DNA of 64,000 nucleotides from Ruegeria sp. SCSIO 43209 (GTDB lineage Bacteria > Pseudomonadota > Alphaproteobacteria > Rhodobacterales > Rhodobacteraceae): positions 186,001-250,000 of the forward strand of contig NZ_CP065362.1 in assembly GCF_019904295.1 (NCBI RefSeq), in the 5' to 3' direction. Each line of letters opens with the position of its first letter. The first letter of the stretch is position 1. Under the pieces are notes generated by a model, which had not been told where the DNA came from, searched no databases, and saw only the letters and a list, made by a program, of their open reading frames with translations. Shown one piece after another: positions 2,715 through 21,013 of this stretch. Made by a program: the position numbers and the translations under genes.

Positions 2715-3128
2715 GTGACCAACCAGATCAAATCCGTTGCTTCCGAGCAAGACGCTGTCAGCCTTGCGCGTGAAAGCTTTATTGGCGAACTGAAAACCCT
2801 GAACCGTCAGCACCCTGGCACAGGATTCGGCGTCGCTCTTCGTACGCATTCGGGCAATCGCTACTTGCTGGCTAATGCCCGCATGCCGCTGCCTGCCAAC
2901 AAAACAGATGATTTTCCGACCGGACGCCGTGTGGCTTGTTTGGAAAATGGTGAAGGCTTCAGTTCAATCGAAGTTCTGGCTGATTCTTTCGCATATGAAT
3001 CGATTTCACCGCGAACCGAGGCCGCAATCCTCGGCAACGCGCTGGATCTGATCGCACGAATCGACACGCTTGCAAGCCTGCCTGACGGGGCAGGGAACCA
3101 CATCGCTGCAACTGGTACCGGAGGCTGA
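2715..3128 (+). CDS. Hypothetical protein, first gene of the dynamin block
   Basis: A 137-residue protein I do not recognise. I place the start at the GTG at 2715, where AGGG precedes it by about 8 bp. The in-frame ATG at 2634 would add 27 residues of unnatural sequence with no ribosome-binding site. The protein is soluble, with an N-terminal helix-like stretch, a middle strand-rich part (residues 34-75, including GFGVALRTHSGNRYLLA) and a C-terminal helix; no membrane segment or signal peptide is visible. Its stop lies 2 bp before the first dynamin-like GTPase, whose ribosome-binding site GGAGG (3120-3124) is inside this gene, so the two are probably translationally coupled. An accessory or regulatory role for the GTPases is only a guess from position. 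Confidence 0.7.
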   Translation: MTNQIKSVASEQDAVSLARESFIGELKTLNRQHPGTGFGVALRTHSGNRYLLANARMPLPANKTDDFPTGRRVACLENGEGFSSIEVLADSFAYESISPRTEAAILGNALDLIARIDTLASLPDGAGNHIAATGTGG

Positions 3129-3130
3129 CC

Positions 3131-5131
3131 ATGGCGCGTAACGACCACCTTCTGTCTGTCGGAAACGAGTCCCTGTCTGAGATGACAGAGGCAATGACCT
3201 CGTTGACGACACAGATCGACCAATTGACAGAGGTGGCGGATGCGCGGTCTTCCGCACGGCTGGCTGCGCTCAAGACCAAAATGGAGAATTTTACCGCCAG
3301 TGTCACGATGGTGGGGCAGGTGAAGGCCGGCAAATCCTCGATCGTGAACATATTGGCCGGGCGGCCAAATCTTTTGCCTTCGGATGTGAACCCGTGGACC
3401 TCGGTGGTTACAACGCTGAACATCAACACCCGCACAGAAGGCGACACCCGTTCCAAATTCACATTCTTCGAGCAGGAAGAATGGGACAATCTGATGGTTG
3501 GCGGCGGTCGTCTGGGCGAGTTGGCCAATCGAGCCGGTGCCGATGATGAGATGGACGATATTCGCCGTCAAATCGGCGAGATGAAGGCCAAATCAGAGGA
3601 GCGGCTTGGGAAGCACTTTGACCTGATTCTCGGTCAGAGCCACCAGTATGATTATTTCGACGATGAACTGATTCAGCGATATGTCTGCCTCGGGGATGAG
3701 GATGACCCGGATATCGACCCCAAGACGGGCCGTTTCGCCGATGTGACTAAATCGGCCGAGCTGTTCATGGATATCCCGCAATATCCGATCTCGCTCAAGC
3801 TCTGCGATACCCCAGGTGTGAACGATACCTTTATGGTACGCGAACAAATCACCCTACGCAGCCTGCGTGGATCAGAGGTGTGTGTTGTTGTTTTGGCTGC
3901 CAGCCAGGCGCTGACCACGATGGACATGGCGCTAATGCGGATCATCGCACAGTTCGAGAACCGCCAGATCATCCTGTTCGTGAACCGCATCGATGAATTG
4001 TCAGACCCGGTCAATCAAGTGCCTGAGATACGTGATCGTATTCAAGACACACTGAAACAGAACAACATAGACGCCAACACCAGCGTTGTTTTTGGCAGCG
4101 CTCTGTGGGCCGAGGCTGCGCTAACCGGAAACCCGGACATTCTAACTGAGGAATCGCGCGAGGCGTTGAACACCTTCTATCTGGCGGCTGGATTTGGCGA
4201 TCAGGCTGCATCGCTGGATAAGATCTGGGCGCTATCAGGATTGCCTGATCTGCTGCTCGCCATGAATGAGCGTATCGCTGAGGGTGCAGGAACGCGTCTT
4301 TTAGATCGCGTTCGCCATCGGGCGCGCAACATTGCCAGCCAGATCCGGGCGACTGCAGTGGCCAAGACGCTGTCTAACTCTGACGGTATCGTTCGGGATC
4401 TGGACGGTGCGTCGCCCGAAGAAGCGATCGCAAAGGTTTCGGCTGAGTACGAAAAGAAAGCCTCGGAACTGACAACCAAGCTTCGCGACAAGGTATTAGA
4501 GCGACTTGCGTCTGCGGAAGCAAATTTTGTCAAACGTGCGACGGATTCTCTGATCTCACATCTGGAACAGAATGGTGAGCAGGGTACATGGCAATATGAT
4601 CCAGCAGGTCTGCGCACCTTGCAGAAGGCGGCATATTTCAGCTTTGCCCGATCCATGCGTAAGGATGCCGGTGCTCTGTATTCGGCTGCTGCAGCGGACG
4701 TGGAGGCACTGTATCAGAAGCTGCTGGGCAACCACTTGGGTGAATTCAACATTGAAGCTCCGATCGTGCCGCGTGTACCCCCGCCATTAGGGATTGGCCG
4801 CACAATCGCACTGGACCTGCAGAGCACATGGTGGCGACGTTGGTGGCAACGCCGCAAAGGGTTCGAAGCCTATGCCGCAGATTATACGCGACTGATCGCG
4901 TCCGAGGCGAACTCGATCACTAAAGACATCGAGGAAAACCAGATCGCCGCAGTCCTAGAGAACGTGCGGGCCGCGCTGACCGACTTTATTGCCGAACAGA
5001 AAGACACGCTGCTCAGCATCTCGCAATCGCCTGAAAGGGCTGCGGCCCAGATGGCCGAGCAGAAGCCGCAGAAATCACGTGACGATATTCTGGGCGATAT
5101 CCTGAAAGACCTTAGTAACGAAGCAGCATAA
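3131..5131 (+). CDS. Dynamin-like GTPase, long form 1
   Basis: A 666-residue bacterial dynamin-like GTPase. The G1 loop is GQVKAGKSS (residues 62-70), the switch-I region is LPSDVNPWT (82-90) with its threonine, G3 is DTPG (226-229) and G4 is NRID (285-288). A helical domain follows from about residue 320. Residues about 562-575 form a striking tryptophan/arginine patch (STWWRRWWQRRKG), a plausible membrane-contact paddle. Dynamin-like proteins bind GTP, self-assemble on membranes and bend or fuse them. This gene is paralogous to the long GTPase at 8171, with near-identical G-loop contexts. It lies 8 bp upstream of a short partner GTPase, as in known bacterial dynamin pairs that work as hetero-oligomers. 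The family is certain; the cellular role is not known. Confidence 0.9.
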   Translation: MARNDHLLSVGNESLSEMTEAMTSLTTQIDQLTEVADARSSARLAALKTKMENFTASVTMVGQVKAGKSSIVNILAGRPNLLPSDVNPWTSVVTTLNINTRTEGDTRSKFTFFEQEEWDNLMVGGGRLGELANRAGADDEMDDIRRQIGEMKAKSEERLGKHFDLILGQSHQYDYFDDELIQRYVCLGDEDDPDIDPKTGRFADVTKSAELFMDIPQYPISLKLCDTPGVNDTFMVREQITLRSLRGSEVCVVVLAASQALTTMDMALMRIIAQFENRQIILFVNRIDELSDPVNQVPEIRDRIQDTLKQNNIDANTSVVFGSALWAEAALTGNPDILTEESREALNTFYLAAGFGDQAASLDKIWALSGLPDLLLAMNERIAEGAGTRLLDRVRHRARNIASQIRATAVAKTLSNSDGIVRDLDGASPEEAIAKVSAEYEKKASELTTKLRDKVLERLASAEANFVKRATDSLISHLEQNGEQGTWQYDPAGLRTLQKAAYFSFARSMRKDAGALYSAAAADVEALYQKLLGNHLGEFNIEAPIVPRVPPPLGIGRTIALDLQSTWWRRWWQRRKGFEAYAADYTRLIASEANSITKDIEENQIAAVLENVRAALTDFIAEQKDTLLSISQSPERAAAQMAEQKPQKSRDDILGDILKDLSNEAA

Positions 5132-5139
5132 GAAGAGTT

Positions 5140-6789
5140 ATGGTAAAAGAATCACAAACCCGCTTCGTCTCTCCCAAGGCTTGGAACCGCATCGAGCAGT
5201 GGTCCCGCCGCAAACCTGTGTTTGCGCTCATGGGGGAATTCAGTGCAGGCAAATCGACGTTGATGAATTTCCTGCTGCGCAAACAGGCACTGCCGACGCA
5301 GGTCACAGCGACGCAACTGCCGCCGATCTGGTTCAGCTGGGGCAATCGACCCGCCTATATCAAACGCCATGATGGTAGTACGCAGAATATCGAATTGGAT
5401 CAGCTTGAACAGGTTGGTGTCAACGACGCCCAGTTCATTCGCATCTTCCTTGAAGCCGACATTCTTGAGGCGGTCGACCTGATCGACACACCCGGCATTT
5501 CGGACCCGAAGATTTCGACGGATGTCTGGCAACGCGCAGTTGGCCAGGCCAATGGTGTGTTGTGGTGCACGCACTCGACCCAGGCTTGGCGCGAAACTGA
5601 ACGTGCCACATGGGTTTCGCTGCCGGAACGGCTGCAGCATAAATCGCTTTTGCTGGTGACGCGCGCAGATGCATTGAATCAGAAAGACCGGCAGAAGGTC
5701 TTGCGCCGCGTAAATCGCGAAGCGGGTCATTTGTTCAATCGCACGATCCTGTTCTCGGCCCGTGATGCTATCATGGCCCGTGACAAAACCGGTGACGCCG
5801 AGCTGTGGTCACGCAGCGGCGGCGGCAAGATGGTCGACAGTTTCCTTGAGATCACTGAGCAGATCATGGACAGCCGTGCGGATATGCTGTCGCGCTATCA
5901 AATTGACAAATCCCTGTCAGACGCACCCAAAGTTCAGCCATCGCGGCCCGAGAAAACCTCTGGTGATGCACCGCTGAAACTTGTCACGCCGATGGAAGAT
6001 GACTCTGCCGAGAATGATGTGGTTACAAGTTTCCCGGTACGCCCTGCCCGCGTGGAGCGTCGCACCGAGGAGTCGGGACAGGCGCGGATTGATGCAGAAG
6101 AAGCCGAGCGGATGCGCGCGGAAATGGCTACCGAAGCGGAGCCTGCTGATGAAGACTTACGTGCCTTGTTCTCTGACAAGACGGAAGATCCGCTGGATCT
6201 GAACCTCTTGGCAAACCCCATCACCGACGTGGATGAGTTTGATTTCATGGATGACGATGATGAGGAAGAGCAGGAAGATGCCGAACTGATCGTCTTGGGT
6301 GAAGAAGAGGACGAAGCGGAAGCAGTCGAAGCTGCGGACACCGAACAAGAGCCGTCGGAAGACGCCGAAGAATCATCAGATATCGAAGTATCGGTTTCGT
6401 CGATTACGGCCCTGTTGGCGGAACAGTCGGAAAACTCGGCAGACGAATATGAACCGGAGCCCGAATCGAATGCGCTGGCTCCAAACCGCGTCGTATCAAT
6501 GGTGGGTGAAGCTGCTGCCGAAGAGATTGAAGATGCAGCCGATGACAAGGCAGATGATTTGGGCGATCGCCTCATAGAAGCGCCACTCAGTGCTGCAGCA
6601 ATGTGGGGTGAAATCGTGGCGCGTGAGAACCTGCCTGACGATGCAAATGGCCTGAAAAGCGCCTTTGCAGCATTCTTGTCCGAGTTTGACCAGATTGCGT
6701 TGGAACATGACGCTAAGCGGAATCAAGACATACCGCGCGCCGTTTCTGAGGCTCGCAAGAACGGCGGAGCGGAATGGCATGCGATTTAG
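5140..6789 (+). CDS. Dynamin-like GTPase, short form 1, with acidic tail
   Basis: A 549-residue GTPase of the dynamin/GTPase-of-unknown-function type. G1 is GEFSAGKST (32-40), G3 is DTPG (116-119) and the G4 position reads TRAD (174-177), a T-x-x-D variant of NKxD. The motif WCTHSTQAWRETER (about 142-155) is shared almost exactly with the short GTPase at 10210, marking them as paralogs. The G domain ends near residue 245. The rest is unusual: a low-complexity, extremely acidic stretch at about 365-417 (runs of D and E), then a small C-terminal helical region. The acidic tail is absent from its paralog and could bind basic surfaces or hold phosphorylation sites. It follows the long GTPase by 8 bp, so the two are probably co-translated. 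Confidence 0.85.
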   Translation: MVKESQTRFVSPKAWNRIEQWSRRKPVFALMGEFSAGKSTLMNFLLRKQALPTQVTATQLPPIWFSWGNRPAYIKRHDGSTQNIELDQLEQVGVNDAQFIRIFLEADILEAVDLIDTPGISDPKISTDVWQRAVGQANGVLWCTHSTQAWRETERATWVSLPERLQHKSLLLVTRADALNQKDRQKVLRRVNREAGHLFNRTILFSARDAIMARDKTGDAELWSRSGGGKMVDSFLEITEQIMDSRADMLSRYQIDKSLSDAPKVQPSRPEKTSGDAPLKLVTPMEDDSAENDVVTSFPVRPARVERRTEESGQARIDAEEAERMRAEMATEAEPADEDLRALFSDKTEDPLDLNLLANPITDVDEFDFMDDDDEEEQEDAELIVLGEEEDEAEAVEAADTEQEPSEDAEESSDIEVSVSSITALLAEQSENSADEYEPEPESNALAPNRVVSMVGEAAAEEIEDAADDKADDLGDRLIEAPLSAAAMWGEIVARENLPDDANGLKSAFAAFLSEFDQIALEHDAKRNQDIPRAVSEARKNGGAEWHAI

Positions 6790-6814
6790 ATTAAACCCGA
6801 AGGTGGGCATCTGA

Positions 6815-7216
6815 ATGTCGATTGACTCTGCTCTGGCTTCGGCCATCGAAACCATACCCGACTGCATCGCAGCTGGGTATGTCGACATGGAGACCGGCAT
6901 GTTATTGGGCGTCGACGCGTCGGACCAAGACAGCGCTGATGCGCTCGAAAATCTCGCACTTGCAGTAGCTAATCTGTTTCAGGGACGCGGAATGAAGGGA
7001 TTCGAAGAACTCCTGCGTGCGGCAAAAATCGACGATACTGAACACCCCGGATTTGGGGAAATCGCGGTGTTCTCAAACGACCGGCTGCACATCTTTCTCA
7101 GGACAACAGAATATCCTGATCACGTGGTATGCTATATCTGCCGCGACAGCGCGAATGTCGGGCTGGCGCTTACGAAATCACATCTCAGCCTCGGGCCGGT
7201 GGCGGCCGCGGTGTAG
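6815..7216 (+). CDS. Roadblock/LC7-like small protein
   Basis: A 133-residue soluble protein. The pattern fits the Roadblock/LC7 (MglB-like) fold: an N-terminal helix (residues 3-14), the strand and turn AAGYVDMETGMLLGVD (about 17-32), a long amphipathic helix (about 38-68), and two closing strands around IAVFSNDRLHIFLR and the hydrophobic HVVCYICR segment, then ANVGLALTKSHL. Roadblock proteins dimerise and act as regulators of small Ras-like GTPases, for example MglB on MglA. Here the neighbours are dynamin-like GTPases, so a GTPase-regulating or scaffold role is attractive but unproven. A AAGGTGG (about 6800) supports the start. The fold call is by pattern only and needs a profile search. 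Confidence 0.6.
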   Translation: MSIDSALASAIETIPDCIAAGYVDMETGMLLGVDASDQDSADALENLALAVANLFQGRGMKGFEELLRAAKIDDTEHPGFGEIAVFSNDRLHIFLRTTEYPDHVVCYICRDSANVGLALTKSHLSLGPVAAAV

Positions 7217-7238
7217 ACGGGACCAGAGGGGGTCACGC

Positions 7239-8102
7239 ATGATGGATAGTGAAATACTGGATATGCTCGAAGGGATCGGGCGGACTTCGATCGCGCGCTT
7301 ATCGCCTGCAATCTACCTATCGGGTAGCAGCGCACTGTTACGCCGGAATGAGGTGCTGGGGGCCATCCGGGGCACGATCTTGCCTCGGCGTTTGGAATTT
7401 ACGGCGGCTGACGGGGCAACTTTGGCTATCGAAGTCAACAGCTCTCGGGTCACCGACGTATTCCGCTGTGCTTCGGGCCCTGTCCCGGATTTTGAAACCG
7501 AAGCACGCGAAAAACTGATCGAACGACTGGCGCAAGTGGTGTCGGAAATTGCAACGGCACCCGGCCCGCTTGAGTTGGTTTCTCTGCGCCCGGATACGGC
7601 GCTTGAGGCTGATGACGTAGGGGTTACCTTTTCGGAGGTCGAAGCGGCCTGCGCGCGGATTGAACTAATCGAAGAGCCGCGCATGGCCATCGTTTCCGAC
7701 CAGACCTTAGAACCAGAAGCCCAGCCAGAAACTGCGTCACAAGGCGCCACCAGTATTGCCGGAAAATTCTTTGAGGGCGCGGATCGGTTCGCATTAGGTC
7801 GAATACTGATTGGGTCGACTGAAGACGAGATGCAATTTGACGGGTTGTGTGCGCAAGGCCAAGACGCACATCCGGACACGGATATATTGGCCCGATTCAC
7901 CCGGGATCTGGCCGGATGGCAGGCCGATGGTTCCGATGCTTTAACTGATCCACAGCTGATCGTCATTCGCCCGACAGGTGGACAAGGCGCGGGTCTCGCC
8001 ATCTTGTGCGACGGTCAGGAAACCGCCGCCGCCGTTCATGACGCCCGCAAGCTGGGCGCTGTCGTCAACCTATGGAAAACATTGAATAGCGCCGTTGAAT
8101 AA
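7239..8102 (+). CDS. Hypothetical protein between the two dynamin pairs
   Basis: A 287-residue protein I do not recognise. The start is the ATG at 7239 (a second ATG follows directly), preceded by AGAGGGGG; a longer in-frame extension back to 7017 is a shadow of the upstream gene and is rejected. No membrane segment or signal is visible. Residues 1-130 look like a mixed alpha/beta domain, 130-180 are acidic and linker-like (EPEAQPETASQ), and 180-287 form a second mixed domain ending in a helix. It is encoded between the roadblock-like gene and the second GTPase pair, so it is most likely part of the same system. The function is unknown. Confidence 0.75.
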   Translation: MMDSEILDMLEGIGRTSIARLSPAIYLSGSSALLRRNEVLGAIRGTILPRRLEFTAADGATLAIEVNSSRVTDVFRCASGPVPDFETEAREKLIERLAQVVSEIATAPGPLELVSLRPDTALEADDVGVTFSEVEAACARIELIEEPRMAIVSDQTLEPEAQPETASQGATSIAGKFFEGADRFALGRILIGSTEDEMQFDGLCAQGQDAHPDTDILARFTRDLAGWQADGSDALTDPQLIVIRPTGGQGAGLAILCDGQETAAAVHDARKLGAVVNLWKTLNSAVE

Positions 8103-8170
8103 CCGCGTTCCTGCCAAATAGTGTCCACTTTGCAAAGTTAAACAAAATACGAGTTACCAGGGTAAATCTT

Positions 8171-10213
8171 ATGAGTGAGTTAAACCGCCGCGAGCTTATT
8201 CGCATCGCAGAAGACATGAACGGGACGAGCAATGACGAAACGCGTCACTTCATCTCGCGCATCGTTGACGACTTGTCGAACCTCAAGCCTTCGATAGCAT
8301 TCGTAGGTCAAATCAAGGCCGGAAAATCGCGCTTGATCAACGGTTTCACCGGGCATGCAGAATATCTACCCTCGGACGTGAACCCATGGACGACAGTGAT
8401 CACCGACATGCATTTCGGTCATCCGTCCGGTCGGACGTCGGGCGCCGAGTTTCATTTCTTCGACAATCGCCAATGGCAGGCCCTGATCGCCGAAGGTGAA
8501 GAGTTGCGCAACATGTTCCCTGATGAAGAGGACAGCTACAAGCGCGAGATGATCGAAGAGCAGGTCGAGGCAATGAAAACCCGCGCCAAGCTGCGCTTGG
8601 GGGAAAGCTACAAGCACCTTCTTGGCGAGCATCACGATCTGGATGAGCTGACCTCGGATGACCTGGCGCGCTATGTCTGTGCCGGGGATGACCCGACAGA
8701 TGAAGACCAGTATGACCCCGGTTCAGATCGGGGCCTTTACAGCGACATCACCCGTAAGGCCGAGGTCTATTTTGACATTGGCCATTTTCCGTATCCGGTG
8801 ACAGTCACAGACACACCCGGTGTCAATGACCCGCTGCTGATCCGTGAAGAGATTTCGCGCCAGTATCTCAAGGAATCCGACTTTTTCGTCGTCGTGCTGT
8901 CTGCGCATCAGGCGTTGTCGAGGGCTGATCTGAAGCTATTCCGCCTGATGCAAGCGCTAGAGCTTGGTCAGATCGTGGTCTTCATCAACCGCGTGGACGA
9001 ATTGGGCGGTGGCGCCGAAGATGCCGGCAAGGTGCGCACTGACGTATTGGATGGGCTCGAACAGGCGCTTGGCAACTCGGAGATTGACGTTCTGATGGGC
9101 AGCGCCCAATGGGCCCATTATGCGCTGACCGGGGATGAAACCGGAATCGACCATGATCAGATTTTGGCGTGGCTGAGGGCGCATCCCGAACAGATGAAGC
9201 AATATCTTGACGGCGTCGAAGAGATCAAACAAGGCCCCGGCCCCATTAGCCGCGAAGGTGTATTGCGATTTGCCGCGATGATCGCGTCGGGTCTGCCCGA
9301 TCTGCGCCGTCATGTGACCAAAGCCCTGACCGAAGGGCCACGCCAAGAACAGCTTAATATTGCGTGGCAGCACTTAAACAGTTTTGCCCAAGGTGAGCTT
9401 GAGCGCAGCACGGCGCGGCTTCGTGCGATTGAGGAAAAGGATGGTCCTGACACAGCGGATGTCGAAGAAAACAACAAATCGCTTTCTGAGTTGCGTGCGC
9501 TAGTTGAAGATAAATCCAAGGCCATCACCAATGATATGGACGATGTATTGGCCAATTTGCGGGGCGTTATGGATGACACCGTCGCCGAGGCTGTCTCGAT
9601 CGTTGTGCGCGGCCCTGATGGGCAATCGCCTTTGCTGGCCAAAGACGGAGATACTGAGCTGAACTTTACGCCTCTGCGTGAGCGGATGCGCGAGCTTGTC
9701 CAGGGCGCGACACAGGTGGTACGGCAGCGCATGCTTAGTGAGCTTTACGCTATCGATATGCAGACCAATGCTGCTTTGCGCGCCCTGCCCGGATGGCAGG
9801 AACCCGTGGACAATCGCATGAATACCAGTGCGGTGCGTTGGTTCCGTCCGAACACAAGCGCGCTGACGCGTGGCATTACGGTTGAGTTGCGTGTGACATG
9901 GCTGTCGCGACTGATATCGCGTCGCAGTGTGTTGAACCGCGCCGAACGGATGATCGTGCAAGAGTTTGAGATGATCGGAGACGATCTTGTAGATACCGCC
10001 AGAAGCGACCTGATCGAACGGATGAAAACCGTTCTTGACCACTATATGGCGCTGCTGGCCGGGCATCTGGAACATCGCGCAGGCCCCGATGGGTCGAACG
10101 CGCGCGCCGAAGCGCAACGTGCGGTTGACCAAGCGCGGCGCATCAGCGATGAACTAGGGGCGGTGCACGGAACTGCACCCGTGGACACTCGACAGGCAGA
10201 GGCCGCAGAATGA
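8171..10213 (+). CDS. Dynamin-like GTPase, long form 2
   Basis: A 680-residue dynamin-like GTPase, paralog of the protein encoded at 3131. G1 is GQIKAGKSR (46-54), where the usual S/T after the lysine-serine is arginine-followed, as KSR; the Mg-binding serine itself is present. Switch I is LPSDVNPWT (66-74), G3 is DTPG (214-217) and G4 is NRVD (273-276). A long helical region follows, with a basic/hydrophobic patch at about 572-590 (TWLSRLISRRSVLNRAERM) in the same place as the tryptophan-rich patch of the paralog. Unlike the paralog it has an insertion after G4 rich in D/E/G. The stop overlaps the start of the next GTPase by 4 bp (ATGA), so the second pair is tightly coupled. Confidence 0.9.
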   Translation: MSELNRRELIRIAEDMNGTSNDETRHFISRIVDDLSNLKPSIAFVGQIKAGKSRLINGFTGHAEYLPSDVNPWTTVITDMHFGHPSGRTSGAEFHFFDNRQWQALIAEGEELRNMFPDEEDSYKREMIEEQVEAMKTRAKLRLGESYKHLLGEHHDLDELTSDDLARYVCAGDDPTDEDQYDPGSDRGLYSDITRKAEVYFDIGHFPYPVTVTDTPGVNDPLLIREEISRQYLKESDFFVVVLSAHQALSRADLKLFRLMQALELGQIVVFINRVDELGGGAEDAGKVRTDVLDGLEQALGNSEIDVLMGSAQWAHYALTGDETGIDHDQILAWLRAHPEQMKQYLDGVEEIKQGPGPISREGVLRFAAMIASGLPDLRRHVTKALTEGPRQEQLNIAWQHLNSFAQGELERSTARLRAIEEKDGPDTADVEENNKSLSELRALVEDKSKAITNDMDDVLANLRGVMDDTVAEAVSIVVRGPDGQSPLLAKDGDTELNFTPLRERMRELVQGATQVVRQRMLSELYAIDMQTNAALRALPGWQEPVDNRMNTSAVRWFRPNTSALTRGITVELRVTWLSRLISRRSVLNRAERMIVQEFEMIGDDLVDTARSDLIERMKTVLDHYMALLAGHLEHRAGPDGSNARAEAQRAVDQARRISDELGAVHGTAPVDTRQAEAAE

Positions 10214-11499
10214 TTGAATTCCCCGGAACCGAGAAGGAAGTGCGCCAGCTAGAGCGTTTCCTGACCGCCACCGAAAATGCACCCTCATCGGCAGAGCTGG
10301 ATGATATGCGCGCCCGCGCGCTGGCCCATGCCGAGCGGCTTTCGAACGCGGTTTCCATTGGTTTTGCCGGGGAGTTTGGAGCCGGAAAGTCCAGCCTTGC
10401 CAACATGCTGGCGGGGGCAGACATTCTGCCCACCGGGCCGCAGCATCTGAAATTGCCCCTGGTGATCGTGGCCTATGCTGATACGCCTGAGACAACCGTT
10501 GGTTGGTGGGACAAGGAACCCAAAGTCTATTCGGGTATAGCGCTGGAAAAGGCAGCGGCTGACGAACCCGATTTCATCTCGGTCGGGTTGAACACCCCGG
10601 CCCTGCAGGAGATTTCGCTGTTTGATCTGCCCGGTGCCGGTGCACTGGATGATACCTACAAGCAGACTCTAAATTTGCTCGACTATGTGGATTGTGCGAT
10701 CTGGTGCACCAACGGCACCAACGCCTGGCGTGAAACCGAACGCCATTTGTGGTCGCAGGTCCCCCAAAAGCTGCGCAATAACAGCTTGTTGGCTGTAACA
10801 CATGCCGATTTGCCTCCGGTGCGGGATGCTCTGGATCGGGTAGTCGCACGCCTGAACAAGGAGAAGGGCGATTTGTTTCGCGCGGTTGTGACCATCGGCA
10901 CCCCGGTTGCGGTACGGGCCATGGAACAAGAGCCTGAACCCGACTTTGCTTTGTGGGAAACCTGTGGCGGGCAGAACTTGGCAGAACAGGTTTTGCACAT
11001 AGCCTCTGATCACCGTCGCCATGATCTTGAGGCCGCCCAAAAAGATCTGGCTGAAGAGTTTATGCCTTATCTGGAGAACCTTACTGGTGCGGCTTCGACA
11101 GATGGCGTTGAGGCCGACGGCAATACTGTGCAGGCAAGCCTAGAGGCCGCCCTGCCCCCCCTGGACAATCCGATCCTTGAAGACTGGCTTGCGGCCATCG
11201 CCAGCATTTACAACGATCTGCGTGAAAGCTCGGATATTGAACCGGCGGCCTTCCTGCAAAGCTGTCAGGAAATCGTCGAGGATTTTGCCGAAAGGTTAGA
11301 ATCTGGTACCGAAATCGATCCCAAAGCAGACTGGGTTCCGGCCGAGTTTGAAAAGGCCACTGACCTGTTGCTGTTGCTGCAGTTTGAAACCGGGGACGCA
11401 CCGCTGAAGGATGCAATAAGCATTCTCGCACAACTCAGCGACAATCTGGCTTGGGCGGGCAGCTCTGTTGCGTCGGCGCCCCCAAAAACCGGCACATAA
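10210..11499 (+). CDS. Dynamin-like GTPase, short form 2
   Basis: A 429-residue GTPase, paralog of the one encoded at 5140 but without its acidic tail. G1 is GEFGAGKSS (54-62), the G3 motif is DLPG (139-142) in place of DTPG, and the G4 position reads THAD (197-200), again a T-x-x-D form. The shared WCTNGTNAWRETER motif lies just after G3 at about 165-178. A roughly 50-residue helical N-terminus precedes the G domain, and the last 130 residues are helical. The start codon overlaps the stop of the long GTPase (ATGA). The DLPG change may slow or alter hydrolysis. Likely the obligate partner of the long form, inferred from overlap and the repeated long/short layout. Confidence 0.85.
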   Translation: MIEFPGTEKEVRQLERFLTATENAPSSAELDDMRARALAHAERLSNAVSIGFAGEFGAGKSSLANMLAGADILPTGPQHLKLPLVIVAYADTPETTVGWWDKEPKVYSGIALEKAAADEPDFISVGLNTPALQEISLFDLPGAGALDDTYKQTLNLLDYVDCAIWCTNGTNAWRETERHLWSQVPQKLRNNSLLAVTHADLPPVRDALDRVVARLNKEKGDLFRAVVTIGTPVAVRAMEQEPEPDFALWETCGGQNLAEQVLHIASDHRRHDLEAAQKDLAEEFMPYLENLTGAASTDGVEADGNTVQASLEAALPPLDNPILEDWLAAIASIYNDLRESSDIEPAAFLQSCQEIVEDFAERLESGTEIDPKADWVPAEFEKATDLLLLLQFETGDAPLKDAISILAQLSDNLAWAGSSVASAPPKTGT

Positions 11500-11839
11500 G
11501 TTTTTCCCGCTTGAATTGAGCCGCATCGCAGCGATTCGAAGCGTTCGGAATCAGCGCGATATTGTTTCGAATTCGTGGACCAAGCGTCTATTTCGGCGGT
11601 ATAGAATCCATTTCTTCCATCAGGCAAACACGACATATAGTGTAATGAAGGTTTGGACTGACTATATAGGCGATTTCGTTTTTTGTGATCCATAGTGAAG
11701 CCATCAGGCGGCCCCAATAAAGTCAAATTTGAAACGTCTAACCGTCTTAAGTGTCCTGCGGTTGTGTTTGGTTGTGAGTTCGCGGGCTGAAGCCCTGGTT
11801 ATCTATGCCGCAATAAACGAGTAGAATGGGCGGGAAGAA
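11500..11839. other. Intergenic gap between the GTPases and the kinase
   Basis: A 340-bp stretch without a convincing gene. It is more AT-rich in the middle (about 11600-11700), which would suit a separate promoter for the kinase gene. No clear terminator hairpin with a T tract follows the last GTPase, so read-through is possible. The kinase ribosome-binding site (GGAAG, about 11833) closes the region. Confidence 0.4.
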
Positions 11840-14023
11840 ATGAGCCACAACCAGGCGGTCGGCGCAACGCACGACGAACCTCAAATCGAAGGATTGCAGC
11901 CAGGCGCAAAGCTGCTGCGCGGACAGTATGAAATCCTCCGGTTCCTAAGCAACGGCGGGTTTGGGATCACCTATCTCGCGCGCGATAGTCTGGATCGCGA
12001 TGTGGTCATCAAGGAATGCTATCCGGGGGCGCTCTGTCAGCGGAATGGTGATCTGGTCGAACCTGCCAACCCTGACCACAAAGAAGACCTGCGCTCCATT
12101 ATCGACCTGTTCATTCAGGAAGCACGCAACCATGCGCGGCTGGTTCATCCCAACATCGTCGACGTGCATCAGGTGTTTGAGGACAACGACACCGCTTATA
12201 TCGCGATGGACCTGATCCGCGGATGCGATCTTCTGGATTATGTCGAAAAACCCGAAAACAAGAGCGGACCGGACTTTATCGTTCAGGTCACCGAAAAAAT
12301 GCTGTCTGCGGTGTCGTTCATTCACCAAAGCGGCATGCTACATCGCGATATTTCACCCGACAATATCCTGATCGATGAGAATGGCGAACCCATCCTGATC
12401 GACTTTGGCGCAGCACGCGAGCAGGCGGCACACAAGTCAGCGGCGCTATTGACGCTGCGCGTGATTAAGGACGGGTACTCGCCGCACGAATTTTATGTGC
12501 GTGGCGCGGATCAGGGCCCCAGCAGTGACCTCTATGTACTGGCTGCAACGCTGTATCATGCGATCAGCGGCGAGCGACCGATTGATGGCCAGACACGTTT
12601 GAATGCGTTCAACAACGGCCAAGACGATCCTTATGAACCGCTGACAGGGCGATTCAAAGGTTATCCTGACGGGTTCCTTGAGGCGATCGACAAAGCAATG
12701 GAAGTGCACGCCACTGACCGTGTGCAAACCGCATTGGACTGGCTGCGTATGTTCCGTGGTCCCGGTGTGATGTTCGACAGTTTCGCGTATCGCCCTGTTT
12801 CGGTCATTGTTGGCATGGATCGCAAAGACGAAGAGGCCGAAAAAGAACGGATCAAAGCCGAAAGCGAGAATGCGGAGGCCGTCGTGACCGCGCTGCTGGC
12901 CGGGAACTCTGATCTGGCCCTCGGGAACGAGGAAAAAACGGAAGACACTCTTGCTAAATTTGCACCTCAGGACGAGGCCGTTGCTGCAGTCGACACCGTT
13001 GTAAAAAGCGGCTCGGGCGGCAGTGGCAAGATGATCGCGGGTATCGCGATTGTATTGGCGGCACTGGCCGGAGGTGGATACTTCGTAATGACGGGCGATC
13101 AGAAATCGCCCGAGGCAACTCCGGTGACTGCAGAGGCTCCGACTACTCCGGTGCCCGCAGAAGCAGCTCCGGAACCCGTCGAGCAGACCGCCGAAGCCAC
13201 AACAGAGCCGCAACAGGCCGAAGTCGCTTTGGCATCAGAACCAGAAGCGGCGCAGGAACAACCTGTCGAGCAGGCTAATGAGGTGCCGGAAGCCGCCATT
13301 GTGTCAGAGCAGCAACCCGAAGAAATCGCTTTGGTGGAACCTGAAGTAGTGGAACCTGAAGTGACGGAACCTACGGTTGAAGACATCACACCCATCGCAC
13401 CTGCGACGCCGGTAAATCTAGCCGAAAACCAGGTTGCATTTGGGCACTGGGATATTGAGATTCCATTCACGATGTCCAAGCGTCGCAGCTCGACCGGGAG
13501 TGTCATTGCCATCAATGGATTGAACACCGGTCAAGATAGGTCGGTGATCGGGGATTGGGTCGAACGGGGCGCTACGATTTTTACTCTGAATGGTGAACCT
13601 ATTCGTCCGGACACAACGCTTGCATCGTATGTTCTAGATAATTTCTCGGTCGATCCAGACGGGTATATCCGTGTAGCAGCGCGCTATCGCAGTCTGGGCG
13701 AAACGCGCGCGCAGAATGGATTGCTGGCCCTGCCCGCCTTCCGCAGTTTTGGCCTTCTGAACGGTTATTCGTTTGATGTGGCTCATGCGGGCGAGGCAGG
13801 TTGGCAAACCGTCGTCGCATCTGTTCCGGAAGAAGTTGCTGGCAGTTTGCAGCGGGGGGATGTGCTGCTGCGCGAAACACAGACTGGTGTCTCGATCAAT
13901 GAGCCCGAGAGTCTGGACGGCATCCTTGCTCAACTTGTTTCCGACAACCAACCCGAGGCGCGCCTAAGCATTTTGCGCAACGGAGCTGAAAGTACTGCGG
14001 TCATGCAACTAACGCAGGAGTGA
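11840..14023 (+). CDS. Membrane Ser/Thr protein kinase with large periplasmic domain
   Basis: A 727-residue Hanks-type kinase. The kinase domain spans about 30-305: glycine loop SNGGFGITY (37-45), ATP lysine K59 in VVIKE, helix-C E94, catalytic HRD (168-170) with N175, and DFG (188-190). All catalytic residues are present. A charged juxtamembrane segment leads to one transmembrane helix (about 398-417). Outside, residues 420-540 are a proline/glutamate-rich linker, followed by a periplasmic C-terminal domain of about 185 residues with two similar halves that look PDZ-like by pattern (GATIFTLNGEPI; GDVLLRETQTGVS). It heads the kinase, FHA and PP2C genes, so it likely phosphorylates the FHA protein and perhaps the GTPases upstream. 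The periplasmic part probably senses the envelope. Confidence 0.88.
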   Translation: MSHNQAVGATHDEPQIEGLQPGAKLLRGQYEILRFLSNGGFGITYLARDSLDRDVVIKECYPGALCQRNGDLVEPANPDHKEDLRSIIDLFIQEARNHARLVHPNIVDVHQVFEDNDTAYIAMDLIRGCDLLDYVEKPENKSGPDFIVQVTEKMLSAVSFIHQSGMLHRDISPDNILIDENGEPILIDFGAAREQAAHKSAALLTLRVIKDGYSPHEFYVRGADQGPSSDLYVLAATLYHAISGERPIDGQTRLNAFNNGQDDPYEPLTGRFKGYPDGFLEAIDKAMEVHATDRVQTALDWLRMFRGPGVMFDSFAYRPVSVIVGMDRKDEEAEKERIKAESENAEAVVTALLAGNSDLALGNEEKTEDTLAKFAPQDEAVAAVDTVVKSGSGGSGKMIAGIAIVLAALAGGGYFVMTGDQKSPEATPVTAEAPTTPVPAEAAPEPVEQTAEATTEPQQAEVALASEPEAAQEQPVEQANEVPEAAIVSEQQPEEIALVEPEVVEPEVTEPTVEDITPIAPATPVNLAENQVAFGHWDIEIPFTMSKRRSSTGSVIAINGLNTGQDRSVIGDWVERGATIFTLNGEPIRPDTTLASYVLDNFSVDPDGYIRVAARYRSLGETRAQNGLLALPAFRSFGLLNGYSFDVAHAGEAGWQTVVASVPEEVAGSLQRGDVLLRETQTGVSINEPESLDGILAQLVSDNQPEARLSILRNGAESTAVMQLTQE

Positions 14024-14222
14024 TCGCCCAGTTGATGTGACTATCGCCAGGTCAGTGTGCTGGGGGTGCCGCCCATCGCGTCACCCCGTCGGGGACCAAC
14101 CCGTCGCGACGTAAATGTTTCTCTGTTTCCTCTTCATCAGTGCCCTGCGCCTACGGCGAAGCGGTTTGTAGCAGTCCCGCGGGTAAAACCCCGCATCAGA
14201 AATCAAAGAAGGTGACGACACC

Positions 14223-15200
14223 ATGTTCAAATACAAAAGCCCTCTGAGCCGGCTTCTAGAAGGTGCCGGAAAACCGAAAGAAGAAGATGCGGTGGAAACC
14301 GAAACCGAAACCGTTGCGGAAGCGGTCGAAACAGAAAGCGCCGCTCCGATTGCGGATTTCAACGCCCTGCGCGCGGCCCTTGCGGGTGGAAACGTTAGCT
14401 CGGACAGCTACGAGGAAGCAGACGAACTGATCCCCGAAGAACCGATGCCCGAGTTTTCGGAAGACCAGATCGAAGATCAGGCGACCGAAGAAGAAGTGGC
14501 CGAGGTTCAAGAGGTCGAAGAAGATGAACAGATTGTCACGCTTCATCTGACTGCGGAAGACGAGGTTCAGGACGATGAACCCGAAGTCACCGTAGAAGAA
14601 CCAGAGGCCATCGAACCTGAAGTCGTATCTGAAGTTGCGGGCGAGGTGGAAATCGTCGGAGAACCCACACCGGAACCGGAGCCTGTTGATGTAACCCCGG
14701 AACCCGCCATGGTCGCACCTGCACCTGCACCGGCTGAAGATCGGCGTTCTCGTGTGAAGACGACGTTTTTGGGTTTCGAGCGTGCAGACACGCATGTTCA
14801 GGAGCTGATGGAAACAGCTGAGCCCGTTGAAAAGACAGAAGCGGCCGAACAGACATTCCCGGTTGGCTGGCTGGTCGTGACCGCCGGACCGGGTCGGGGT
14901 GCCGCGATTACCTTGACCGAGGGATTGATGCAGATCGGTCGGAATGACGATCAGGCTATTCAGCTGGATTTCGGCGACACCGGGATCTCTCGCAGCAATC
15001 ACGCCGTCATCGCATATGACCCAGAGGACCGGAAATGCTATCTGGGCCATGGCGGCAAGGCCAACTTGGTGCGCCTGAATGGCAAGCCTGTGCTCAGCAC
15101 CATAGCCTTGTCCAGCGGCGATCTGATCCGGATCAGCGAAACCTCGATCCGCTTCACCGCTTTCTGTGATGACGGCTTTGACTGGCGGGATGCCGATTAA
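14223..15200 (+). CDS. FHA-domain protein with acidic N-terminus
   Basis: A 325-residue cytoplasmic protein. Residues 1-200 are low-complexity and strongly acidic, rich in E, V and P, with no predicted fold. Residues about 214-320 form a forkhead-associated domain, with IGRN at 238-241, SRSNH at 256-260 and the later NGKPV turn; these hold the phosphothreonine-binding arginine, serine and asparagine. FHA domains bind phosphorylated threonine, so this is the natural reader of the upstream kinase. Its start is 200 bp after the kinase stop, and its stop overlaps the PP2C start by 1 bp. The acidic tail recalls the acidic stretch of the short GTPase at 5140. Scaffold is the best guess; the binding partner is unknown. 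Confidence 0.88.
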   Translation: MFKYKSPLSRLLEGAGKPKEEDAVETETETVAEAVETESAAPIADFNALRAALAGGNVSSDSYEEADELIPEEPMPEFSEDQIEDQATEEEVAEVQEVEEDEQIVTLHLTAEDEVQDDEPEVTVEEPEAIEPEVVSEVAGEVEIVGEPTPEPEPVDVTPEPAMVAPAPAPAEDRRSRVKTTFLGFERADTHVQELMETAEPVEKTEAAEQTFPVGWLVVTAGPGRGAAITLTEGLMQIGRNDDQAIQLDFGDTGISRSNHAVIAYDPEDRKCYLGHGGKANLVRLNGKPVLSTIALSSGDLIRISETSIRFTAFCDDGFDWRDAD

Positions 15201-15979
15201 TGCTGGCGACCCCTGCATATGATATTGCCCTGATCCTGGACCAGGGTCAGCGCGACTCGCAGGAAGACGCGATTGCTGCGCGGGTCTCTGACGCGGCAGA
15301 CGCGGGTTATGTCGTGATTGCCGACGGTATGGGTGGTCATGAAGCGGGTGAAGTCGCTTCGCAGTTGGTCATTTCAGCCTGGCGCGATGCGATGGATGCC
15401 CAGTTGGATGGGCCCGACCTTGCTGAGAGCGCACTGCTCGACGCTCTGCCGTTGGCCGCAATGCAGGCCAACGCCGCTATGGCGAGCCATAGTGAGGAAA
15501 ACGAGGTCAATCTGGGCTCCACCCTTCTGGGCATGTTGATGCTGGATCAACGAGTATTCTGGATCTCGATCGGTGACAGTCCACTTTACCTGTTCCGCAA
15601 TGATGCCCTGTCACAGGTCAACGAAGATCACTCGATGGCCCCGGTGATCGACGAACAGCTCGCACAAGGATTACTGAGCGCGGAAGAGGCACAAGGCCAT
15701 CCGGATCGTAACCAACTGACTTCGGTGATCATGGGGGCTGCGATTCCAAAAGTGGATTGTCCGGAACAACCATTAGCGCTGATTGCGGCAGATGTACTGA
15801 TCCTTGGCAGTGATGGTCTGCAATATCTCGGCAATTCCGAGATCGAAACGCTGGTGCGCACGCATATTCATTCCCCGGCTCGCGATATTGCTGATGCGCT
15901 GCTTCAAGCACTGCATGCAAAGGCAGACCCGGATCAGGACAACATTTCAATCGCCGTGGTCAAACCGGCACAGACTTAG
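15200..15979 (+). CDS. PP2C-family protein phosphatase
   Basis: A 259-residue metal-dependent Ser/Thr phosphatase of the PppA/Stp type. The metal-binding motifs are all present: RDSQEDA (18-24), DGMGGH (42-47), GST (about 106-108), GDSPLY, NEDHS, SDGL and the final DQDN. There is no membrane segment. It would reverse phosphorylation by the kinase encoded at 11840. Its start codon overlaps the FHA stop by 1 bp, so the two are translationally coupled, and a secreted LysM protein follows 22 bp after its stop. Kinase, FHA and PP2C side by side occur in type VI secretion control modules, but no secretion genes are present here. Confidence 0.92.
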   Translation: MLATPAYDIALILDQGQRDSQEDAIAARVSDAADAGYVVIADGMGGHEAGEVASQLVISAWRDAMDAQLDGPDLAESALLDALPLAAMQANAAMASHSEENEVNLGSTLLGMLMLDQRVFWISIGDSPLYLFRNDALSQVNEDHSMAPVIDEQLAQGLLSAEEAQGHPDRNQLTSVIMGAAIPKVDCPEQPLALIAADVLILGSDGLQYLGNSEIETLVRTHIHSPARDIADALLQALHAKADPDQDNISIAVVKPAQT

Positions 15980-16001
15980 ACAGGCAGTGAAACAGGACAA
16001 A

Positions 16002-17264
16002 ATGCGAAACCATCTTATCATATCCACCCTCGCTCTTGCTGCTGCAACAGGTGCAGCATCGGCGCAAGAGGCGTGTTCGACTTATGAAATCCAGCCCGGT
16101 GACAGCTTGCGGGAACTGGCAATTGCCGTCTACGCGACGGAAGATTACCGGATCATCTATGATGCGAACCGGGATACGATCGGGTCGAACCCCAATATCA
16201 TTCGCGTCGGTGATGTCCTGACTTTCCCTTGTCTTGAAGATATCGGGCGCGCGGCGCAACTGCCGGATACCGAAGCTGGCCGCATGGCTGCCGAAATGGC
16301 CTCGGAACTGGTCAAAGCTGCCGAGGAACGGGCTGAAAAAGCCATTGCCGAGGCCGAAGCCCGCGTGGCCGCTGCAGAGGCCGAAGCTAAAAAGACCAGC
16401 GAAGAAGCCGTAATCGCGGCCAAGGCTGCGGCCAAGAAAGAGATCGAAGCAGCCCGTGCGGAAGGTGCCGCATTGATCCGCAACGCGGATGGTGGCGAAA
16501 GCCCTGAAATTCGTGACCGTCAGATTTTGTTGATCACGGGTGGTAACTACGCCCCGTTTACGGATGAAGCGCTGCCAAATCGTGGGCTTTATACCAACCT
16601 GGTTGAAACCGCGATGCTGAGGGCCGCGCCCGAGCAGTCCTACAAGATTCAGTTCGTTAATGACTGGTCGTCGCATCTGGACCTATTGATGCCGACACTC
16701 GCCTTTGACGCCACATTCCCTTGGTCGCGGCCGAACTGTGAACAAGCCGCTACGTTGTCGGAAAATGATCGTTCACGGTGCGAAACCTATAATTTCTCAA
16801 ACCCATTCTACGAGGTCGTTGATACGTTCTTCGCAAAAAGCGGTTCGGGTTACGAAGAGACTCTGACTTATGCAGATTTCGCGGGCACAACGATTTGTAG
16901 GCCGGAAGGTTGGTCATTGTCGCATATGGATGCAGTTGGTCTTTACGAGCCTGCAATCACTTTGATGCGCCCCGTTTCACCCGATGATTGTTTTCGCGCA
17001 GTCATGGATGGCACAGCCGATATTGTCGCGATCGAAGCGCATCTGGCGGTCGAAGCAATCGGGCGTCTGGGCTACGAACATCAGATCATCGAAAACCCCA
17101 ACCTAGCGGCAATCAAGTCGCTTAACGTCATGACCCACAAAGATAATCCGGATGGGGAAGCGATCCTTGAGACGCTCAACCAGGGTCTGGCGATCATGCA
17201 GCAATCAGGCGAGTGGCGCGACATCGTATCTACCGCACTGCGCTATCAAATGGAAAATGGCTAA
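16002..17264 (+). CDS. Secreted LysM / coiled coil / solute-binding-domain protein
   Basis: A 420-residue exported protein. Residues 1-21 are a signal peptide cut after ASA. A LysM peptidoglycan-binding domain covers about 28-77 (YEIQPGDSLRELA) and is flanked by cysteines C25 and C77. Residues 95-158 are an Ala/Glu/Lys-rich coiled coil. Residues about 172-415 form a type-2 periplasmic solute-binding domain (SBP_bac_3-like), starting ILLITGGNYAPFT and containing DWSSHLD. The start is the ATG at 16002, since earlier in-frame codons overlap the phosphatase. The layout suggests a wall-anchored receptor that lifts a ligand-binding domain away from the peptidoglycan. No ABC permease is nearby, so sensing rather than import is likely, perhaps for the kinase. 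Confidence 0.85.
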   Translation: MRNHLIISTLALAAATGAASAQEACSTYEIQPGDSLRELAIAVYATEDYRIIYDANRDTIGSNPNIIRVGDVLTFPCLEDIGRAAQLPDTEAGRMAAEMASELVKAAEERAEKAIAEAEARVAAAEAEAKKTSEEAVIAAKAAAKKEIEAARAEGAALIRNADGGESPEIRDRQILLITGGNYAPFTDEALPNRGLYTNLVETAMLRAAPEQSYKIQFVNDWSSHLDLLMPTLAFDATFPWSRPNCEQAATLSENDRSRCETYNFSNPFYEVVDTFFAKSGSGYEETLTYADFAGTTICRPEGWSLSHMDAVGLYEPAITLMRPVSPDDCFRAVMDGTADIVAIEAHLAVEAIGRLGYEHQIIENPNLAAIKSLNVMTHKDNPDGEAILETLNQGLAIMQQSGEWRDIVSTALRYQMENG

Positions 17265-17307
17265 GGCCTTGATTGGCCCAACGAAACAAAGTCTGGAGGA
17301 AGTGGAC

Positions 17308-18414
17308 ATGTTTAACAAGAAATTGAAGAAAGCAGTACTGTCGGCATCAGCCTTCACCGCCCTGAGCGCAGGTGCAGCCGCCGCTCAAGAGGCCTGCTCC
17401 AACTATACGGTTCAGGATGGCGACACATTGGCGACCATCGCCATTGCCGCCTACGGCACCTCAAACTATCAGCCGATCTTTAACGCTAACCGCAATGCAA
17501 TCACCAATCCCGGTTCGCTAACCCCCGGTCTGGTACTGGCGCTGCCCTGTGAGGATGGCAGCCTGCCCAACGGTCAGAGCGCGCAAGAACTGATCGCGGC
17601 AGAAGAACAACGTGCTGCAAGCGTCAAGCGCTCGAATGTCTACGCGCCTCCGATCAAGATGGTCGCTGGCAACGGTTGGGAACCGTTCACTACTGAAGAT
17701 CTGAGCGGCGGTGGCATCATGACCCGTCTGGCGACGACAAGCCTTCAGCGTGCTGGTAACAGCCGTGATTTCTCGGTCAGCTTTGTAGATGACTGGAGTT
17801 CGCATCTGGACACACTGTTGCCACTGGGTGCGTTTGATATTTCGATCGCGTGGACTGTTCCGGATTGTACCAACCGCTCCTATGAGTGGTCTGCAGAGAC
17901 CGAAGCCCGGTGTACCCAATTTGTCGCTTCTGTTCCGGTATATGACATTGTCGGAGGTTTCTTCACTTTGCCTGAAAGCGAATACGCAAAGGCGACAGAT
18001 TTCTCCGACCTTGAGGGCTCGACCGTTTGCCGCATGGCAGGCTGGAGCATGGTGGTGCTGGAAGAACAAGGGCTGAACCGCGAGAACACAACCGTGGTCC
18101 AACCCAATTCGGCTCGCGAATGTCTCGATGCCGTATTGACCGGTACGGCAGACGTGGCTGCATTCGAAGTTGATCTGTTTGCCTCGACAATGAAAGACAT
18201 GGGTTTGACCTCGGCGGATATTGTTGAGAACCCGTATGTCTCGACACTGTCTTCGATGAGCTTCCTTGCACACCGCACCAATCCATTCGCGCGCGAGTAC
18301 ATCGCGATGATGAACAAGGGTTTGATCGAGATGCGCGAATCCGGCGAATGGTACGCGATTATTTCCGACACGCTGCGCGAACAAAATGAAAAGCTGAACG
18401 CAGCATCAAACTAA
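17308..18414 (+). CDS. Secreted LysM / solute-binding-domain protein
   Basis: A 368-residue exported paralog of the preceding protein. It has a signal peptide (1-26, cut after AAA), a LysM domain at about 33-80 (YTVQDGDTLATIA) bracketed by C30 and C81, and a solute-binding domain at about 114-365. It lacks the coiled coil, so the ligand domain would sit closer to the wall. FVDDWSSHLD matches the paralog. The start is fixed by GGAGGA at 17294-17299, 8 bp before the ATG at 17308. Its stop is followed within 30 bp by a strong terminator, so this closes the operon. Two wall-anchored receptors of different reach suggest a heteromeric or graded sensor; the ligand is unknown. Confidence 0.85.
   Translation: MFNKKLKKAVLSASAFTALSAGAAAAQEACSNYTVQDGDTLATIAIAAYGTSNYQPIFNANRNAITNPGSLTPGLVLALPCEDGSLPNGQSAQELIAAEEQRAASVKRSNVYAPPIKMVAGNGWEPFTTEDLSGGGIMTRLATTSLQRAGNSRDFSVSFVDDWSSHLDTLLPLGAFDISIAWTVPDCTNRSYEWSAETEARCTQFVASVPVYDIVGGFFTLPESEYAKATDFSDLEGSTVCRMAGWSMVVLEEQGLNRENTTVVQPNSARECLDAVLTGTADVAAFEVDLFASTMKDMGLTSADIVENPYVSTLSSMSFLAHRTNPFAREYIAMMNKGLIEMRESGEWYAIISDTLREQNEKLNAASN

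Positions 18415-18799: not shown

Positions 18800-21013
<2,214 letters not shown>

Follow-up and report, generated by a model that had tools for sequence, protein, structure and literature searches.

A 64,000-nucleotide stretch of Ruegeria sp. SCSIO 43209 (contig NZ_CP065362.1, positions 186,001 to 250,000; hereafter the window) carries twelve genes (A to L) on the same strand at positions 2715-18414, followed by a hairpin resembling a terminator. The encoded proteins include dynamin-like GTPases (B, C, F and G), proteins with a predicted roadblock fold (D and, in part, E), a Ser/Thr kinase (H), an FHA protein (I), a PP2C phosphatase (J) and a pair of LysM/solute-binding proteins (K and L). 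The genes, their order, their strand and the terminator are all present as described in an earlier annotation made by a model from the letters alone (the original prediction). Dozens of related genera keep most of this gene set together, an indication that the genes form a working system. We hold with moderate confidence that it constitutes one conserved signalling-effector system, in which a kinase/PP2C/FHA switch would control dynamin assembly. The Ruegeria-type cluster looks like this core combined with a membrane-sensor module.

Linkage of the core genes across the Rhodobacteraceae

The distribution of the gene set was surveyed independently in 199 genomes of the family Rhodobacteraceae, representing 198 genera. 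A scan of the genome collection based on gene F, for which the best 80 of 435 confirmed places were kept, was biased toward close relatives. In the survey, protein I was detected in 41 genomes, B in 52 (48 of them with strong matches) and K in 50. The linkage comparison used B matches with E < 1e-50 (48 of the 52 genomes) and the 31 stronger K rows (30 of the 50 genomes), with LysM-only and weak rows excluded. Strong B matches were found in 39 of the 41 I-bearing genomes, and the distance between I and B is at most 15 kb in 35 of the 41.

The 33 non-Ruegeria genomes among those 35 were read as 34 loci, one genome having two. The order kinase, FHA protein, PP2C, GTPase, long GTPase, short GTPase, roadblock protein and E (H-I-J-G-B-C-D-E) is intact in 26 of the 34 loci and 25 of the 33 genomes. 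Of the 21 loci (L146-L166) fetched only after the profiles had been built, and not used in building them, 16 are likewise intact. All eight genes are also present in genome G175, where the blocks B-C-D-E-G and H-I-J-K-L are divergent, and seven of the 34 core loci are incomplete, four of them owing to contig ends. The linkage of the core set is demonstrated by these counts. The original prediction had proposed a neighborhood search, in which independent occurrence of the GTPase block and the kinase/FHA/PP2C/LysM block would speak against it; for the kinase/FHA/PP2C triad the expected linkage to the GTPases was borne out (35/41 genomes; 26/34 loci). For the LysM/solute-binding genes, in contrast, independent occurrence is in part what was observed.

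In Ruegeria, Roseovarius and Aliiroseovarius, the genes occur in a rearranged form with additional GTPases and the LysM/solute-binding pair, and the Ruegeria-type gene order represents a third arrangement of the eight core genes. Among 56 close loci (Ruegeria and allied metagenome-assembled genomes, Roseovarius and Aliiroseovarius), all twelve genes were found in 55, and the remaining locus, cut by a contig end, has A-H. Gene A is present in all 56, and gene F in 53 of 53 Ruegeria genomes. By profile, G is the best-match counterpart of the third GTPase in the core order. The more distant loci of Tritonibacter, Epibacterium and Aestuariivita show the order H-I-J-G-B-C-D-E; D scores low there, as does E in two of these loci.

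The kinase, FHA protein and phosphatase

The kinase, FHA and PP2C domains, like the Dynamin_N domain in all four GTPases, score above the Pfam cut-offs. Within the GarA/OdhI-like FHA protein I, Thr180 and the FHA residues G239, R240, S256, R257, H260 and N281 are invariant in 21 of 21 aligned rows, which are 21 of the 30 I rows entering one of the threonine-pattern counts. These FHA residues are presumably those that bind phosphothreonine. A threonine pattern of the type [KR]T[RTK], placed anywhere in I, was found in 80 of 81 rows and in 34 of 35 core rows; the core row that lacks it is cut short by the end of its contig. The I family matched eight PDB sequences up to E 0.001, all of them GarA or OdhI by name, or else Rv1827, which we take to be GarA, and Mb1858, which align likewise. 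Thr180 precedes the FHA match by 35 residues; in GarA the corresponding spacing from Thr21/22 is 34-35 residues (2kfu alignment), provided that the chain numbering equals the protein numbering. The ETTS phosphorylation motif was not found in I, and RxKT(R/T)(L/F)LGF stands in its place. Beside one core locus, a second, short FHA gene lies on the opposite strand (L113:14890-15528).

In the phosphatase J, the DG[MA]GG motif is kept in 35 of 35 rows, SDG in 34 of 35 and DN[IL] in 17 of 35. Counts for PP2C, kinase and P-loop motifs were all taken over loci other than L010-L050 and L059-L063.

Kinase H has one hydrophobic segment by hydropathy, in agreement with its original description as a membrane kinase. 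Its tail gave no Pfam match, and its match to the PDZ region of DegP is weak (E 0.015). A hydrophobic segment was found in 21 of 21 examined kinases near K/L (loci other than L010-L050), 16 of which are from Ruegeria, Roseovarius or Aliiroseovarius. Among the core kinases longer than 380 residues (31; H was not detected in 3 of the 34 loci), 27 have no such segment at a hydropathy cut of 1.6. The four with a segment include the kinase of G175, itself beside K/L. Membrane sensing, which had been taken as a trait of the system at large, is thus a mark of mainly one subtype.

The same division appears in the kinase tree, where a branch with support 97/92 separates the Ruegeria kinase, all 15 K/L rows and three others from all 14 core rows. 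No direction of change is claimed, the tree being unrooted and two of its rows having very long branches; the tree covers loci other than L010-L050, L059-L063, L067 and L084 (in which no HRD motif was found).

Dynamin-like GTPases and roadblock-fold proteins

Two Dynamin_N genes lie side by side twice in the cluster, as B-C and F-G, and the P-loop is intact in all four GTPases of the window. Across loci, it was found in 56 of 58 rows of B, 26 of 26 of F and at least 60 of 62 of C. The best PDB matches of the F family profile are 5owv (listed as a GTP-binding protein, which we take to be the Campylobacter dynamin-like protein pair) and 2j68 (a bacterial dynamin-like protein). In the trunk of B, a nearly constant WWxxWW-RR stretch begins at residue 567 (window 4829), and WWxx[WFL] is present in 34 of 35 B rows of core loci. 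The position of this WW-rich basic segment, which we liken to that of the membrane tip of known dynamins, is suggestive of a candidate membrane tip.

The paralogue pairs share 28% (B/F), 30% (C/G) and 32% (K/L, 396 columns) identity, so the cluster has grown by duplication.

D, already suspected to be roadblock-like, has no Pfam match above cut-off; its AlphaFold2 model (pLDDT 89) matches Roadblock/LC7 3kye and MglB 6hjm at a Foldseek probability of 1.00. E had been listed as an unknown protein; its C-terminal half is roadblock-like in the model, with a borderline fold match. Sequence profiles of D and E gave nothing credible against the PDB, and the predicted folds alone were informative. Tandem-longin proteins (Mon1-Ccz1, Fuzzy-Inturned) also appeared in the Foldseek list for E over longer ranges, and were not relied on owing to poor TM-scores.

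The LysM/solute-binding pair

In the window, K and L match LysM and SBP_bac_3 below the Pfam cut-offs only, and a relative (L089) passes both. Against the PDB, the K/L family profile matches the LysM domain of Kbp and glutamine/amino-acid solute-binding proteins, to which the solute-binding part is nearest. The N-termini of K and L are signal-like by eye, and the pair, previously termed wall-anchored, is better described as secreted, LysM-bearing proteins.

Their inclusion in the system drew its boundary too wide. Of the 30 genomes in which K matched more strongly, only four have it near I or B, and 17 have neither I nor a strong B. In four genomes the K-L pair stands beside an H-type kinase, away from the GTPases, with the core elsewhere in each (in G170, H was undetected). 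The LysM/solute-binding pair is a separate, third module and not part of the core. Of the ten genomes in which K scores at least 225 bits, nine have protein I (p 2.6e-6, ignoring kinship, at a cut chosen after seeing the table); with the next two genomes added (G004 and G086, both without I), the count is 9 of 12 (p 4.2e-5, ignoring kinship).

A second copy of L is located 3' of the first in some Ruegeria loci (L020, L028, L048, L050, L052, L060 and L067). Tandem LysM/solute-binding pairs at L089, L090, L094 and L097, with no kinase or GTPase of the set in the fetched stretch, point to a wider family.

Organization and flanks of the cluster

The coordinates of the features are collected in Table 1.

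Table 1. Genes and other features of the cluster, in window positions.
Feature	Position	Strand	Description
Gene A	2715..3128	+	Small protein of no assigned family, start uncertain; directly 5' of B
Gene B	3131..5131	+	Long dynamin-like GTPase 1, 666 aa; Dynamin_N 44 bits (cut-off 27)
Gene C	5140..6789	+	Short dynamin-like GTPase 1, long acidic tail; Dynamin_N 40.6 bits
Gene D	6815..7216	+	Predicted Roadblock/LC7 (MglB-like) fold; AlphaFold2 and Foldseek
Gene E	7239..8102	+	Two-domain protein; T-x-L-P-R stretch conserved N-terminally; C-terminal half 166-287 (window 7734-8099) roadblock-like in model
Gene F	8171..10213	+	Long dynamin-like GTPase 2, paralogue of B; Dynamin_N 54 bits
Gene G	10210..11499	+	Short dynamin-like GTPase 2; Dynamin_N 40.5 bits
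Conserved noncoding block	11685..11780	+	5' of kinase gene; alignment of 15 loci
Gene H	11840..14023	+	Ser/Thr kinase; Pkinase 100 bits; hydrophobic segment residues 399-417 (window 13034-13090)
H tail	13091-14020	+	About 310 residues C-terminal to hydrophobic segment; presumably periplasmic; weak PDZ-like similarity
Gene I	14223..15200	+	GarA/OdhI-like FHA protein; FHA 32.5 bits; FHA residues 237-304 (14931-15134)
I Thr180	14760-14762	+	Invariant; within R-x-K-T-[RT]-[LF]-L-G-F
Gene J	15200..15979	+	PP2C phosphatase; PP2C_2 52.7 bits
Gene K	16002..17264	+	Secreted LysM, linker and solute-binding domain; by family profile
Gene L	17308..18414	+	Paralogue of K
Intrinsic-terminator-like hairpin	18440-18465	+	11-pair stem, then T run

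Gene A had no match in a Pfam scan, and a PHROGs scan of six cluster proteins returned kinase matches only. Most of the gaps are short or overlapping, as originally described, with exceptions of about 340 bp before the kinase gene and 200 bp before the FHA gene: in up to 57 loci including the window, the median gaps are -4 to 67 nt, apart from G-H (338 nt) and H-I (179 nt), with gene starts assigned mechanically and the D-E gap outside the measurement. The median A-B gap is 2 nt, and in the window F and G overlap by 4 nt. In an alignment of 15 Ruegeria loci, eight of them displayed, the 3' part of the G-H gap (about 95 nt) is far more conserved than its 5' part; this block probably serves a second transcription unit as its promoter or leader. 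A search of window 11480-14300, which spans the G-H and H-I gaps, gave no Rfam match up to E 0.1.

The cluster is preceded by a tRNA-Leu gene (1863-1947, minus strand). A gene read from its protein as isocitrate dehydrogenase (icd; 18800-21013, minus strand) converges on the cluster from the other side. In 49 Ruegeria-type loci, tRNA-Leu was found 5' in 45 and icd 3' in 34, and neither in two, several stretches stopping before the flank. Neither gene was found beside the cluster in seven Roseovarius/Aliiroseovarius loci. The vicinity of icd to a GarA-like protein is curious, since GarA acts on the 2-oxoglutarate node, and was seen in Ruegeria-type loci only.

Departures from the core arrangement

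Several observations weigh against a single, dynamin-dedicated system. Nine genomes of the family survey have a strong B without I, and two have I without B; in four others I and B are both present but not adjacent, one of these (G174) having its FHA gene at a contig end. At class level, I was detected in 9 of 387 genomes, and among the longer regions fetched (which include neither the weak match G490 nor the family member G408), seven regions from six genomes outside the family contain I mostly together with H and J, with no GTPase of the set nearby. The GTPases in turn occur beside a DSP phosphatase and an ABC-type ATPase with no triad nearby, so that other wiring works too. The Thr180 motif is kept equally in FHA copies located away from the long GTPase, and the phospho-switch therefore need not be dynamin-specific and may serve more than one target.

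Other points of this kind concern the individual proteins. G is divergent, and the P-loop pattern fails in 9 of its 44 rows (35 match). The kinase patterns were missed in some rows, being found in 33 (Lys), 36 (HRD) and 39 (DFG) of 41. Two core kinases lie near the hydropathy cut of 1.6 (L123 at 1.54 and L164 at 1.43). The narrower threonine pattern used initially matched 32 of 41 rows, and was widened after inspection of the misses. For the C-terminal half of E, the fold match is borderline.

In G194 the GTPase block and the triad lie on different contigs, and in G163 H-I-J occurs without B. Given these separations and the regions outside the family that lack the GTPases, the triad looks portable; within the family it is usually, not always, tied to them.

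Related arrangements of GTPase genes were also observed. In a sister arrangement at L064, L066 and L068-L071, a phosphatase of the DSP family, which matched PF22785/PF22784 in the single case tested, lies close to D, E, the ABC-type ATPase, F and a short GTPase; L074 and L081 have the same gene set in another order. A ferredoxin-reductase-globin fusion is present in six of the eight DSP-linked loci. At L078, L080, L082 and L120, long and short GTPases are repeated in tandem (long-short, long-short) without the triad, preceded at L078 and L082 by a small roadblock-looking protein. Pfam and PDB searches with the one beside the B-C-B-C locus L082 gave no match.

Alternative explanations

The triad could be a GarA-type metabolic or nutrient switch, in which periplasmic amino-acid sensing, the kinase and the FHA protein act on a 2-oxoglutarate/glutamate enzyme; the dynamins would then be passengers, or an additional output of the same operon unrelated to the first. 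The PDB matches of I to GarA/OdhI and of K/L to amino-acid solute-binding proteins fit this explanation, as do the isocitrate dehydrogenase adjoining the cluster in 34 of 49 Ruegeria-type loci and the triads outside the family with none of these GTPases nearby. We nevertheless consider it unlikely, because 25 of 33 genomes from different genera preserve the order of triad and GTPases, and because icd lies on the opposite strand and was not found by the cluster in the seven Roseovarius/Aliiroseovarius loci.

A defence system against phage, or an abortive conflict system, in which kinase signalling set off by infection would free membrane-attacking dynamins, is quite unlikely. The presence of F in all 53 Ruegeria genomes and the flanking genes, tRNA-Leu being found in 45 of 49 Ruegeria-type loci, argue for a resident function in Ruegeria rather than a defence island. 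That argument is limited by the patchy presence over the genera of the family (I in 41 of 199 genomes) and by good matches of the kinase to PADLOC kinase models, namely PD-T4-6 (best E 3.8e-43) and mad6 (E 1.7e-39). These matches fall mostly in the shared kinase domain and were read as generic. The GTPases match LeoA/LeoBC weakly in PADLOC (best E 2.6e-9); D, E, I and J had no match in the scan, which did not extend to A, K and L, and no whole defence gene set was matched.

That two independent operons are mere neighbors is, in our estimation, improbable. Such neighbors would account for the separate contigs of G194, and the conserved noncoding block and the 338-nt G-H gap do suggest two transcription units in the Ruegeria-type cluster, but the same eight genes recur in three arrangements, one of them all on one strand with H-I-J immediately 5' of the GTPases. 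Finally, PpkA-PppA-Fha, the threonine-phosphorylation pathway of type VI secretion, shares the kinase, PP2C and FHA triad, but derivation from such a pathway that acquired GTPases has a negligible likelihood, as the FHA protein is nearest to GarA, and it was dropped when no VipB match was found in the whole genome with a positive E. coli control (one sheath family searched).

Comparison with known systems

The core system of putatively kinase-controlled dynamins invites comparison with several others. In the PknB-PstP-FhaB operon of Actinobacteria, a membrane kinase, a PP2C and an FHA protein are encoded together with division and wall genes. The best NCBIfam matches of H and I are PknB/Stk1 and FhaB, respectively, but both scores are far under the cut-offs (131.9 versus 450 bits for H, 29.6 versus 125 for I). 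There is no PASTA domain among the Pfam matches, and dynamins take the place of the division and wall genes. As with MglA-MglB, a roadblock fold is encoded beside a GTPase gene; here, in contrast, the GTPases are dynamin-like and not Ras-like, and roadblock regulation is putative.

The GlnH-GlnX-PknG-OdhI/GarA pathway of Actinobacteria, as presented in PMC9769921 and PMC8546545, offers an analogy close in layout. Both comprise a periplasmic amino-acid-type binding protein, a transmembrane step, a Ser/Thr kinase and an FHA regulator with an N-terminal threonine about 35 residues before the FHA match. In the present cluster, the membrane part and the kinase are combined in one protein, and a PP2C gene lies alongside. 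The kinase is of another type, H giving no TPR or rubredoxin Pfam match up to E 1, while TPR and Rdx are named for PknG in PMC8546545. The motif differs as well, ETTS being given for GarA/OdhI in the same source, as opposed to RxKT(R/T)(L/F)LGF in I. The likely target here would be the GTPases, in place of 2-oxoglutarate dehydrogenase.

Because its Dynamin_N genes are adjacent, the cluster was placed with the paired bacterial dynamin operons, of which Campylobacter DLP1/2 and Nostoc BDLP likewise have adjacent long and short dynamin genes. It differs from them in its number of GTPases (three or four), in two proteins with a predicted roadblock fold (borderline in E) and in the kinase/FHA/PP2C triad. 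Pairing of dynamin genes in operons is described as common in PMC6104087, in whose main text the word "kinase" was not found. The DO-GTPase/GAP1-N2 conflict systems (PMC7159879) also link GTPases to a kinase and a PP2C, some with PDZ or wall-binding domains. Their GTPases are of another family, and no DO-GTPase, GAP1 or vWA was found among the Pfam matches of the cluster up to E 1.

The combination of paired dynamins with a phospho-switch and roadblock regulators was found in no publication, and no description of this gene set was found, among the matches listed in open-licence literature, judged by titles and abstract openings, which makes for weak evidence of novelty.

Proposed mechanism and significance

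From these features we infer how the parts may interact, in which direction the switch operates, and what its ligand and output might be. Kinase H and the PP2C phosphatase J would set the phosphorylation state of I. Once phosphorylated at Thr180, I may fold onto its own FHA domain and release its target or, less likely, newly bind it. The target would be a dynamin-like assembly of the long/short GTPase pair and the third GTPase, and the roadblock proteins D and E may tune the GTPase nucleotide cycle, as MglB does that of MglA. The output might be the switching of a heterotypic dynamin assembly on the inner membrane, for tethering, repair or fission. In Ruegeria, Roseovarius and Aliiroseovarius, a membrane kinase stands in place of the usual soluble-looking kinase, and its outer tail, together with the LysM-anchored K and L, could detect an amino-acid-like ligand or report on the condition of the wall. 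The original prediction, partly supported by this analysis, had caught a real system, and one more general than it could know.

To our knowledge, the regulation and role of most bacterial dynamins are still open. We propose, tentatively, that the genes described here represent a hitherto undescribed class of membrane-remodelling machine: heterotypic dynamins under the direct control of a kinase, a PP2C, a GarA-like FHA protein and roadblock proteins, linked in about one-sixth of the genera of Rhodobacteraceae, mostly in the form of one eight-gene unit, and, in its Ruegeria-type form, coupled to LysM-anchored periplasmic amino-acid sensors. The conserved unit provides a concrete set of candidate regulators for bacterial dynamins in culturable marine bacteria, together with a single threonine, Thr180 of I. 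If the proposal is true, the system would be a bacterial counterpart of the eukaryotic control of dynamin that runs from receptor to phosphorylation, and the logic of the GarA/OdhI phospho-switch, known from metabolism in Actinobacteria, would also apply in Alphaproteobacteria, to membrane GTPases.

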